The notes under the pieces are model-generated. The model saw only the letters and a program-made list of their open reading frames with translations, made no database searches and was not told the origin of the DNA. 15,285 nucleotides of DNA, from contig JADFJB010000114.1 in assembly GCA_022566355.1 (NCBI GenBank), positions 1 to 15,285 on the forward strand, read 5' to 3'. Below are positions 600 through 7,954 of the stretch, piece after piece (within the stretch, counting starts at the first letter, position 1; each line of letters starts with the position of its first letter). Origin of the DNA: a candidate division KSB1 bacterium (GTDB lineage: Bacteria > Zhuqueibacterota > JdFR-76 > DREG01). Made by a program: the position numbers and the translations under genes.

Positions 600-1190
600 T
601 CATGAAATGCTAACGATTTCCCTTGCTCGTTCCATACGATCGTAGATTTGTTTGCGTTTACGACCAGAGATTGTTGCGTAAATATCTGTAGTTTGAATGT
701 ATTTATGGCCTAACTGATCTTTTACTTCCTCCTGGGTGTGACCAGCATCGAGCATATGCACCGCTATAGAATGTCTTAAAGTATGTGCATGCCATTTATC
801 TTTGGGCAATTTTGCTTTCTTGGCATACGCCCGAAAAAGATCATCGATGGTTTTTCGTGAAATTGCATTTTTCTTCCGGGAAAGAAACAAAGGCGAATAA
901 AAATCAACTTCTCTTTCCTTAAGGTAAGCTTTTAAAAGTCGAGCAGTGTCTGAGAAAATGCCATACTCTCCTGAAACACCACCTTTCAATCGCCAGATTT
1001 TAATCCGTCGGCGATCCAAGTCAATATCTTCTATTTTAAGTAATCCGGCTTCCGATGCCCTGAGGCCGTATTTATAAATCACATTGAACATGGCCCGATC
1101 GCGTTTAGATTTGATCTTTGAAAAAAATCTCGCGGTCTCTTCCTGGGTAAGATATTTTATGGTTGTATTTTTTTGATTGATAGGATCCAT
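600..1190 (-). CDS. Short tyrosine recombinase (XerC/D/FimB-like catalytic domain only)
   Basis: 196 residues, tyrosine recombinase/phage integrase family (PF00589). These enzymes cut and rejoin DNA at specific sites through a covalent 3'-phosphotyrosine. The full catalytic set is visible: Arg44 (YGLRASEAG), Lys69 (RLKGG), His136 and Arg139 (HTLRHS), His162 (LGHKY) and nucleophile Tyr171 (TTDIY). Xer proteins and phage integrases are usually about 300 residues or more because of an N-terminal SAM-like core-binding domain. Only about 15 residues precede the catalytic fold here, so that domain is absent, as in the roughly 200-residue FimB/FimE switches. The ATG at 1190 has a weak CAGGT site upstream. 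No partner gene is adjacent, but the upstream DNA carries an array of short inverted repeats that may be its target or its operator. Activity is plausible because all catalytic residues are kept; substrate and role are unknown. Confidence 0.88.
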   Translation of the reverse strand: MDPINQKNTTIKYLTQEETARFFSKIKSKRDRAMFNVIYKYGLRASEAGLLKIEDIDLDRRRIKIWRLKGGVSGEYGIFSDTARLLKAYLKEREVDFYSPLFLSRKKNAISRKTIDDLFRAYAKKAKLPKDKWHAHTLRHSIAVHMLDAGHTQEEVKDQLGHKYIQTTDIYATISGRKRKQIYDRMERAREIVSIS

Positions 1191-1593
1191 TGATATACCT
1201 GTTTAAATGTCCGGTGAGGAAAAAGGGCTCTACCGGTCAGTTTGTGTATTATGTCCGGTTGGAAGTATAGCTATAAATTCAATAAAATAAAAGGGTTATT
1301 TTGATTTAAAGGCAACCATCGATTGTCTAACCGGACAGTATACTTAAGATTTTCCCCCCAAGGTACTGCAAGAAAAAAAAGTTTAATGCCGACAAGCTTC
1401 AACGCCAGGAATCCGGAAAAGTACTTGCTTTAAAAACATCCATTCCTTTTATTGGTTTTTGTGGTTTTAGACAAATAGACATTTTCATTCCATCTTTCGA
1501 ATCAATTTTGCTAAATTAAGGTTGTTGGAAATGATATTGAATAGAATTCATGCAAAGCCAAAACAAAACGCTATCCTGCTAATACCTCATAGA
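1191..1593. other. Intergenic region between recombinase and metallo-hydrolase operon
   Basis: About 400 bases between divergent genes. The left third is the inverted-repeat array. The remainder (1344-1593) is AT-rich with a run of eight A near 1373 and shows no convincing promoter, RNA or ORF. The open frame of the metallo-hydrolase extends left to a TTG at 1522 and an ATG at 1531, but the lipoprotein signal argues for initiation at 1594. Confidence 0.5.
1208..1343. repeat. Inverted-repeat array upstream of recombinase (candidate recombination or operator sites)
   Basis: Four copies of an 8-bp word occur in 136 bp: TGTCCGGT at 1208-1215 (+) and 1252-1259 (+), its complement with one mismatch at 1232-1239 (ACCGGTCA), and its exact complement at 1330-1337. 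The last two extend to a 15-bp inverted repeat, GTATTATGTCCGGTT (1246-1260) against AACCGGACAGTATAC (1329-1343), 13 of 15 matching, around a 68-bp AT-rich centre. On the minus strand TATACT (1264-1269) could be a -10 box reading toward the recombinase, which would place repeat copies over its start site and leader. Binding by the recombinase or by a repressor is inference. Confidence 0.6.
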
Positions 1594-2813: not shown

Positions 2814-4622
2814 ATGAAAAAATATATTCTTGGATTTCTTGGATTGGTGTTATTAATCGGAGGATGGTGGACTTACAAGCTTGTCTGGGGTAAACCGCTG
2901 AACATAAACCATTTTTATGAAAGAGTATTCATCGAATTCTTACTGGACGATCCGCAGTTACTCTCCCAATTAGGATTCATAGATAATTCACTTTTAGATT
3001 TTCACAGTGACGATCTAACGGACTCATCGCCAGCCCGGGCTCAAAAACTTGCTGATAAAACTCGGAGCGATCTCGAGCTTCTGCGTAGCTACGACCGTGA
3101 GGATCAAAGCAAATCGCAACAACTTTCAACTGATATCCTGGAATGGTTCATCGATGATGCTGTCCGGGGAGAACGATTTATGTACCATAATTATCCTGTC
3201 AATCAACTATTCGGAGTGCAGAGTAACCTTCCCAGTTTCATGGACGCTACACATCAAGTCAAAAATAAGAAAAGTGCGGAAAATTACATAGCCAGGTTAT
3301 CAAAATTTGGTATTAAGTTCGACCAGGTGATTGAAGGATTGAAACTGCGGGAAGAAAAAGGGATCATCCCACCCAAATTTGTTATAGAGAAAGTTCTCAT
3401 AGAAATGCGGAATTTCGTTATTCAACCAGTAGATGAGAACATCCTGTTTGTTTCCTTTCAAATGAAAGTTGAAAAGGTAAAAGAGTTTGAAAAAGAAAGC
3501 GCTGGTAAACTCTTTGCAGATGTCCGAGAACAGATTGAAAAAACTGTGTTCCCTGCTTATCAAAGAATGATTTTCTATTTTGAAGCTTTAGAGGCTAAAG
3601 CCACAACCGATGACGGCGTTTGGAAACTTCCCGATGGTGAAGCATATTATGCTTACCAGTTGCGCAGCAATACCACATCCGATTTCACTCCGGAAGAGGT
3701 ACACCAGCTTGGCTTAGAGGAGGTAAACCGTATCCAGAGTACAATGCATTCAATCCTGGATAGCCTCGGTTATACCGGTAAGACCGTTGCGAGTCACATG
3801 CGCCGACTCGGCTCAGAAGACCGCTTCCTTTATCCTGATACCGATTCCGCACGTGTGCAAATCTTAAAAAAATACCAGGAGATTATCGATGAAATCGACC
3901 AAAACCTGGGCATGGTATTTAACGTACGCCCTAAGATGGGTGTGGAAGTAAGGCGCGTTCCCGAATTTAAGGAGAAGACCGCACCTGGCGCTTATTACAA
4001 TGGACCAGCAATGGACGGATCACGTCCAGGTGTTTTCTTTGCCAATCTTCGCGATGTAAAAGAAATTTCTAAATTTGGCATGCGTACCCTGGCCTATCAT
4101 GAAGCCATACCCGGCCACCATTTTCAAATAGCGATCCAGCAAAAGATAACCGGAGTTCCCACTTTCCGCAATCTTATTCCCTTTACTGCTTACACAGAAG
4201 GGTGGGCGCTTTATGCGGAGCTCCTTGCATGGGAATACGGCCTTCAGCAAGATCCGTTCAATAATCTTGGCCGATTGCAAGCCGAATTGTTTCGAGGGGT
4301 ACGCCTTGTTGTTGATACCGGCATACATTACAAAAGATGGACGCGCGAACAAGCTATCGCTTATATGCTTGACAATACCGGCATGTCAAAAGGTGATGTA
4401 GTTGCAGAGATTGAACGTTATATTGTCAATCCAGGTCAAGCCTGTGCTTATAAGATCGGGATGTTAAGAATTGTTGAGTTGCGAGAAAAAGCGAAACAAA
4501 AATTGGGCGATCACTTCGACATCAGGGATTTTCATGATGTGGTACTCAAGAACGGCGCCATGCCCCTGAGCATTCTAGAACAGGTGGTGAATGAATATGT
4601 AGAGAGTAAATTGTCCTCTTAA
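2814..4622 (+). CDS. DUF885 family putative zinc metallopeptidase, membrane-anchored
   Basis: 602 residues of the DUF885 family (PF05960), widespread proteins resembling gluzincin metallopeptidases. The metal-binding motif HEAIPGHH lies at 429-436 and the second acidic motif TEGWALYAE at 461-469, so a zinc site of two histidines and a downstream glutamate is likely. The conserved tail element YIVNPGQACAYKIG follows near 536-549. Length matches the family (about 550-620). An N-terminal hydrophobic stretch (ILGFLGLVLLIGGWWTY, 5-21) without a clear cleavage site suggests a membrane anchor with the catalytic domain outside the cytoplasm. TAGGAG overlaps the stop of the preceding gene and sits 7 bases before the ATG, so translation is probably coupled. 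The substrate is unknown; peptide or dipeptide cleavage is inferred from the fold. Confidence 0.87.
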   Translation: MKKYILGFLGLVLLIGGWWTYKLVWGKPLNINHFYERVFIEFLLDDPQLLSQLGFIDNSLLDFHSDDLTDSSPARAQKLADKTRSDLELLRSYDREDQSKSQQLSTDILEWFIDDAVRGERFMYHNYPVNQLFGVQSNLPSFMDATHQVKNKKSAENYIARLSKFGIKFDQVIEGLKLREEKGIIPPKFVIEKVLIEMRNFVIQPVDENILFVSFQMKVEKVKEFEKESAGKLFADVREQIEKTVFPAYQRMIFYFEALEAKATTDDGVWKLPDGEAYYAYQLRSNTTSDFTPEEVHQLGLEEVNRIQSTMHSILDSLGYTGKTVASHMRRLGSEDRFLYPDTDSARVQILKKYQEIIDEIDQNLGMVFNVRPKMGVEVRRVPEFKEKTAPGAYYNGPAMDGSRPGVFFANLRDVKEISKFGMRTLAYHEAIPGHHFQIAIQQKITGVPTFRNLIPFTAYTEGWALYAELLAWEYGLQQDPFNNLGRLQAELFRGVRLVVDTGIHYKRWTREQAIAYMLDNTGMSKGDVVAEIERYIVNPGQACAYKIGMLRIVELREKAKQKLGDHFDIRDFHDVVLKNGAMPLSILEQVVNEYVESKLSS

Positions 4623-4742
4623 AGCTTGTGTTCATTCTAAAAAGGTGGGATACCGATTCCATCGCTCTCATAAGTATTTGTTTTTATGTAACATTGCTTT
4701 TGGAAAAGCGATTGCATCGGTTTTTAGAGTAGACTCAAGCTT
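4622..4742. repeat. 121-bp imperfect palindrome, REP/MITE-like, possible terminator
   Basis: The outer arms begin at the stop codon of the preceding gene: AAGCTTG (4622-4628) pairs with CAAGCTT (4736-4742), continuing to CTAAAAA (4637-4643) against TTTTTAG (4721-4727), 18 of 22 positions pairing. Inside, ACCGATTCCATCGCT (4652-4666) faces AGCGATTGCATCGGT (4707-4721), 13 of 15. Eight extra bases (4644-4651) bulge from the left arm and the loop is 40 bases. Five T follow the inner stem, so it could end transcription of the operon. The core GATTCCATCGCT recurs in the hairpin at 9458-9492. Confidence 0.65.
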
Positions 4743-7277: not shown

Positions 7278-7535
7278 TTATGGTCTTTTCAAAATATCAT
7301 GAGTGCCAATTCTTCTCAGAATTATCCGATCTGACTCTATGGTGAAGGTGAATCGGTAGGATTTAGTTACTCGGCCTTCCCAGGTATTGGGGTGGCCTTT
7401 CATTTTTTTAGCCTGTAGTGAAGGATGTTTGGGGTTCTGGAAAAACAGGGCTAGCTGCTTTCGGGCTCGCTGTTTGATGTCTTGAGGTAACGATTCAAAT
7501 TCTTTTGTAAAGCGATTAGATTTGACTATGGTCAT
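7278..7535 (-). CDS. RelE/ParE-family toxin
   Basis: 85 residues with the compact RelE/ParE toxin fold (PF05016-like). The N-terminal helices contain FTKEFESLPQDIKQRARKQLALF, followed by a beta sheet WEGRVTKSYRFTFTIESDRIILRRIGTHDIL. Such toxins either cleave mRNA at the ribosome (RelE) or poison gyrase (ParE). The late basic and histidine residues (RRIGTHD) fit the mRNA-cleaving type, but this is not decisive. It overlaps the upstream antitoxin by 4 bases (ATGA, 7532-7535), so translation is coupled, as usual for type II pairs. The length is normal (80-100) and nothing suggests inactivation. No terminator was recognised downstream. Confidence 0.85.
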   Translation of the reverse strand: MTIVKSNRFTKEFESLPQDIKQRARKQLALFFQNPKHPSLQAKKMKGHPNTWEGRVTKSYRFTFTIESDRIILRRIGTHDILKRP

Positions 7536-7954
7536 GGGCGTAGAGAATTGAGCAGCTCCTCGGGGTTGTGGAATTCCTTAATTCGACCCTGGTCAATATC
7601 CCGCTGCGCTTCTCGCTCGCCCTGCTGCCATTCTTCTGTCCACCACCAGCGTTGCTCTGGGTCGATCAGGCCAACCTTTGCAGCCACCTCGGTTTCGGCT
7701 TCTGTTAATCCGTTTGCAGATTTAAGATCTTTCCGGATTGCCTGAATTTTACGTTTGGCTGATTTTAGGAGCTTTTGGTCTCTGGGTGAAAGTTTCGGCA
7801 ATGGCATCTTCTCGAGGATCCGCTTGGGGATTATTATACCTTTGCCATCTTGGACAGTCACCTCTAGGATATCCCCAGTCTCCAGTTGGAGGGTTTCAAA
7901 AACCTCTTTGGGTATAGTTATCTGGTGTTTGGGGCCGATTTTAACATGTGGCAT
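7532..7954 (-). CDS. AbrB/SpoVT-type antitoxin
   Basis: 140 residues. Residues 1-45 (VKIGPKHQITIPKEVFETLQLETGDILEVTVQDGKGIIIPK) form a swapped-hairpin SpoVT-AbrB DNA-binding domain, as in MazE-like antitoxins. A basic helical linker (about 58-80) leads to a tail DPEQRWWWTEEWQQGEREAQRDIDQGRIKEFHNPEELLNSL, which is the expected toxin-neutralising part; WQxGExEAxxDxxxGR...F-type tails recur in RelE/ParE-pair antitoxins. GGAGG lies 6 bases before the ATG. The protein should block the toxin and repress the operon through the palindrome at 8010-8020. Pairing an AbrB-type DNA-binding domain with a RelE-type toxin is a mixed combination compared with textbook RelB-RelE or MazE-MazF. Confidence 0.85.
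   Translation of the reverse strand: MPHVKIGPKHQITIPKEVFETLQLETGDILEVTVQDGKGIIIPKRILEKMPLPKLSPRDQKLLKSAKRKIQAIRKDLKSANGLTEAETEVAAKVGLIDPEQRWWWTEEWQQGEREAQRDIDQGRIKEFHNPEELLNSLRP

Follow-up and report, generated by a model that had tools for sequence, protein, structure and literature searches.

The core sites at which tyrosine recombinases act have a size and symmetry of 12 + 8 + 12 bp. In known DNA switches, repeats of 7–16 bp adjoin the recombinase gene, and the invertible segment of ipuS is 260 bp long (PMC6083910); that of fimS is 314 bp long (PMC9993118). Recognition sites beside recombinase genes are also described in other settings: for IntS of KplE1, att overlaps the integrase promoter and the integrase represses its own expression (PMC2951348), and the integron site attI1 is laid out as boxes L, R, DR1 and DR2 (PMC8946536).

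The window described here, meaning the whole stretch of DNA that was analysed, is the entire contig C114 (15,285 bp) of a 4.62-Mb metagenome-assembled genome. An earlier note had drawn attention to a group of short repeats between a recombinase gene and a divergent lipoprotein operon, and offered two readings: a small invertible segment, or an operator bound by the recombinase.

The recombinase gene and its product

600..1190, minus strand: stand-alone tyrosine recombinase, 196 aa, catalytic domain only (PF00589, E=6e-33, residues 13-173)

The reading frame is open without interruption, and its description as an intact and short recombinase is thus confirmed. The product scores 114.4 bits against PF00589 (Phage_integrase), above the gathering score of 27.1. 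In a structure alignment confined to the catalytic domain, residues R44, K69, H136, R139, H163 and Y172 fall on aligned motifs of XerA, XerD and IntI4, and we take them to be the R-K-H-R-H-Y active site. The best profile and structure matches are to XerA/XerC/XerD (NF040815, 4a8e, 1a0p), with which the active-site residues are shared; however, the first 87 positions of the XerA profile are absent, leaving the enzyme without an N-terminal core-binding domain, and its best score against the Xer equivalog profiles (136.8 bits, cutoff 220) is below every equivalog cutoff. The gene is present in single copy. Because its genome encodes two other, longer recombinases elsewhere (open frames of 304 and 358 aa, 32–37% identical), the 196-aa enzyme is probably not the chromosomal Xer.

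Like the FimB/FimE-type invertases (NF007370/NF007371; fimS, hyxS, ipuS), the enzyme is about 200 aa long, consists of the catalytic domain only and has inverted repeats beside its gene, and its residues 13-187 are collinear with positions 12-192 of the 200-aa FimB-type profile NF007370. It nevertheless scores 77.6 bits against that profile (cutoff 221) and 57.4 bits against NF007371 (cutoff 222), and it has no fimbrial context here. The best NCBIfam label mentions integron integrase, albeit with a score below cutoff; the score against TIGR02249 (integron integrase) is 80.5 bits, far below the cutoff of 265. The spacing from K69 to H136 is 67 residues, which is presumably too short to hold the extra IntI insert.

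Boxes upstream of the recombinase gene

The features upstream of the gene are as follows, with CCGG centres numbered relative to the recombinase ATG and counterparts given for L005, the closest relative found.

1208..1215, plus strand: box D, TGTCCGGT, CCGG at -24; L005 has an identical ACCGGACAT at -28
1232..1239, minus strand: box C, TGACCGGT, one mismatch, CCGG at -46, 22 bp from D; L005 has AGTCCGGT at an equal 22-bp step
1252..1259, plus strand: box B, TGTCCGGT, CCGG at -68, 22 bp from C; the L005 counterpart is a degenerate ACGGGCT
1330..1337, minus strand: box A, distal, CCGG at -144; L005 has ACCGGACG at -151 in opposite orientation
1246..1343: A-B imperfect inverted repeat, 18-nt arms (1246-1263 and 1326-1343), 15/18 (83%) complementary, 62 nt between the arms
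1248..1277, minus strand: promoter-like TTTATA-18-CATAAT for the recombinase, overlapping box B; weak, with equally many in shuffles

The cluster of four repeat copies within 136 bp noted earlier is present, although only three of them (D, B and A) are exact TGTCCGGT/ACCGGACA octamers and the fourth, box C, is a one-mismatch copy. Similarly, the inverted repeat is there, but it had been given as 15 bp around 68 bp and measures instead as listed above. The minus-strand TATACT said to sit inside the repeated segment was located at 1269-1264. From B to C and from C to D the step is exactly 22 bp, or about two helical turns.

Taken alone, the box cluster is only mildly to moderately unusual. When the window was shuffled 300 times with its dinucleotides kept, a GC-rich 8-mer (at least five G/C) with at least three copies in 136 bp arose five times, and such a cluster arose 137 times once AT-rich words were allowed. 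Promoter-like sites in the region are at chance level, with two seen against 1.9 expected from shuffles.

As a single strand the array folds better than its shuffles (z -4.0 to -4.7), and Rfam gave no match. This folding, the integron label of the enzyme, and the presence of four boxes, two of them an inverted core pair and the others additional, much as in attI1, could all be accommodated by an integron-like platform, with the array serving as an attI-type site that has accessory boxes and with cassettes captured by the recombinase. We consider this highly improbable, given the low TIGR02249 score, a K69-H136 interval into which an IntI insert would presumably not fit, and box and repeat searches of the window that showed no further boxes, repeat array or cassette array, on a contig that ends 600 bp past the gene.

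Conservation of the proximal pair at a second locus

L005, found in one genome-collection scan, encodes a recombinase with 82% amino acid identity over 161 aa; its contig ends within the gene, and its flanks differ from those of the window. Just 5' of its ATG it carries AGTCCGGT-N16-ACCGGACAT, the window counterpart of which is TGACCGGT-N16-ACCGGACAT. The proximal inverted pair common to both loci and adjoining the start codon is GNCCGGT-N16-ACCGGACAT, with 14 of the 16 site bases identical but only 6 of the 16 spacer bases; the rest of the upstream DNA is poorly conserved. When the DNA upstream of L005 was shuffled 200,000 times, no such pair arose. A MAFFT alignment of the two loci superimposes the distal CCGG boxes with only a 3-bp gap in between, albeit with the L005 box reversed and box B degenerate.

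Genome-wide boxes and pairs were counted by pattern searches. Across seven whole genomes, the 32-bp pair pattern occurs with at most one mismatch only at the window and L005 recombinase loci, with one copy in each of the two genomes, and matches with two mismatches number approximately 1–2 per genome, near the calculated background of about one per genome. Exact AACCGGACAT sites are scattered across the window's own genome, and among those read the array form is seen only at the window's. No comparable box pair was found at L045, which encodes a 41%-identical short recombinase in another genome. As L005 was the sole relative found whose 5' end is intact, conservation of the array rests on two loci, and it is because of this conservation at L005 that we count the array as significant. 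The earlier note had made its proposals depend on the repeats being conserved beside orthologous recombinases, and for the proximal pair they are.

A second pair, at C35:804-834 of the window's own genome, has a spacing of 17 and toxin-antitoxin-like ORFs as neighbours. It was dropped; its occurrence is about that expected by chance (0.3 to 0.7 per genome by our estimate) and the stretch read contains no recombinase. Pairs at loose spacing in viral contigs (more than 120 stretches) are likewise consistent with chance, and no close relative is encoded at the loci examined. We note that the core-pair spacer of L005, GACCCAAATCCG, has a second occurrence, matching at 11/12 positions, 129 bp farther upstream and close to the distal box (4518-4529, 4647-4658), and this is possibly a second, degraded copy of the site.

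The divergent lipoprotein operon

In a Fim-like switch, the recombinase would invert about 1261-1328, the A-B segment, and so point a promoter now at its own gene, now at the divergent lipoprotein operon. Such a switch would fit a short recombinase whose size and domain content resemble those of FimB/FimE, the A-B repeat with TATACT/CATAAT-like sequences within the segment, and the repeats that adjoin recombinase genes in known switches (PMC6083910). The would-be inverted segment, however, is 62–68 bp, far below the 260–314 bp of ipuS and fimS, and the spacing kept at L005 is that of C-D and not A-B, with a poor box B and box A in the opposite orientation. Moreover, an orthologue of the lipoprotein in genome G029 (L185, 66% identical) has different upstream DNA, in which neither the array nor a recombinase was found. 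The array thus goes with the recombinase and belongs to it, which counts against a switch devoted to the lipoprotein operon. The invertible segment proposed earlier has gained no support beyond the repeat itself and is possible but unlikely, a small chance at best. An inverted repeat adjoining a recombinase gene need not mean an inverton.

A proposed core site with autoregulation

1208..1239: proposed core recombination/binding site, TGACCGGTAGAG-CCCTTTTT-CCTCACCGGACA, 12 + 8 + 12 bp, read on the minus strand; the division into arms and crossover is putative

The boxes and their phasing, their retention beside the gene at a second locus, their absence with the neighbouring operon elsewhere, and the sporadic and decayed relatives described below are consistent with an array that serves the small recombinase as its cognate recognition site, in cis with its gene, and that combines a core site with autoregulation; we give this a probability of about 0.6. 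The proximal pair C-D would be the core site, with inverted arms in which GTCCGGT is outermost and a short crossover between them where strand exchange would occur, and boxes B and A would be extra (accessory) sites for binding of the recombinase. As the boxes lie at -24 to -144, over the promoter/leader, their occupancy would probably also repress the recombinase's own transcription. Counting against the core-site reading, the orientation of box A and the sequence of box B are not kept at L005, and the promoter-like site does not rise above chance level.

This arrangement is of a common type, here in a little-known enzyme lineage. Recognition boxes directly 5' of the recombinase gene, over the likely promoter/leader, are shared with IntS of KplE1, although IntS serves a prophage and has TorI as its RDF partner, whereas no prophage, RDF or tRNA target is seen here. 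A core inverted pair and extra integrase boxes adjoining the integrase gene are shared with attI, the differences from which are those of enzyme and cassettes given above.

The main rival to a core site with autoregulation is a pure auto-operator, the boxes binding the recombinase or another regulator for transcription control only and recombination taking place elsewhere. The same-face 22-bp phasing from -24 to -68 over the leader/promoter, the lack of a second core site seen near the gene, and the single pair copy at no more than one mismatch in each of two genomes are all as such an operator would have them. The C-D geometry, on the other hand, resembles a core site, and att sites commonly overlap integrase promoters and double as operators (PMC2951348), so that operator and core site need not be exclusive. 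We regard a pure operator as somewhat unlikely. The broader suggestion of the earlier note, that the array is an operator or is bound by the recombinase, is supported by retention of the pair at L005, its restriction to these two loci and the lack of the array upstream of the G029 lipoprotein orthologue.

With a core site and autoregulation, what was a suspected DNA switch becomes a testable recombinase/site pair, composed of a compact enzyme without a core-binding domain and the 32 bp proposed as its cognate site. An active pair would constitute a new, small system of site-specific recombination.

Distribution and decay of related recombinases

Close homologues are present in three of the 82 genomes of the phylum, the window's own included. 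G029 contains three partial recombinase copies at different places; L008 (C259) is a broken copy and a pseudogene, and L172 (C159) retains only the last 60 aa, with 86% identity. An N-terminal recombinase piece is present in G023/G082. Similarity between loci at the DNA level is restricted to the recombinase gene. The pattern is sporadic and often decayed, and suggests that recombinase and site together act as a module that is, or once was, mobile. Both L172 and L008 lie shortly 3' of a gene with a sorting-domain-like end.

Neither a second att-like core bounding an element near the recombinase gene, nor element ends or empty sites, were found. The top matches to the recombinase in plasmids and phages have only 28–37% identity, and protein scans of viral contigs gave no match or one remote match. 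A minimal one-gene mobile element, in which a catalytic-domain-only tyrosine recombinase with a 32-bp core site spreads without other genes and leaves decayed relics in a poorly studied phylum, is an unlikely reading.

The bin containing L005 (G082) is titled Phycisphaerae. G023 (C219, L007) and G082 (C135, L046) have in common a stretch of 3,273 bp, identical both in sequence and in its contig coordinates, which represents a shared or misbinned contig. Because G082 shares this stretch with G023, whose bin belongs to the window's own phylum and has 8% contamination, we do not claim cross-phylum transfer.

Other features of the window

Near the contig end (1-479, minus strand), a signal-peptide-like start, MKKLIFSLVLVLM (identified by eye, from 479), is cut short by a stop and lies in another frame than the ORF at 1-357, which has a C-terminal sorting/FlgD-like domain; this is a frameshifted gene or an assembly error. 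At 7278-7954 (minus strand), a ParE/RelE-like ORF (a weak match) is preceded by an AbrB-like ORF, and the two are a probable toxin-antitoxin pair.
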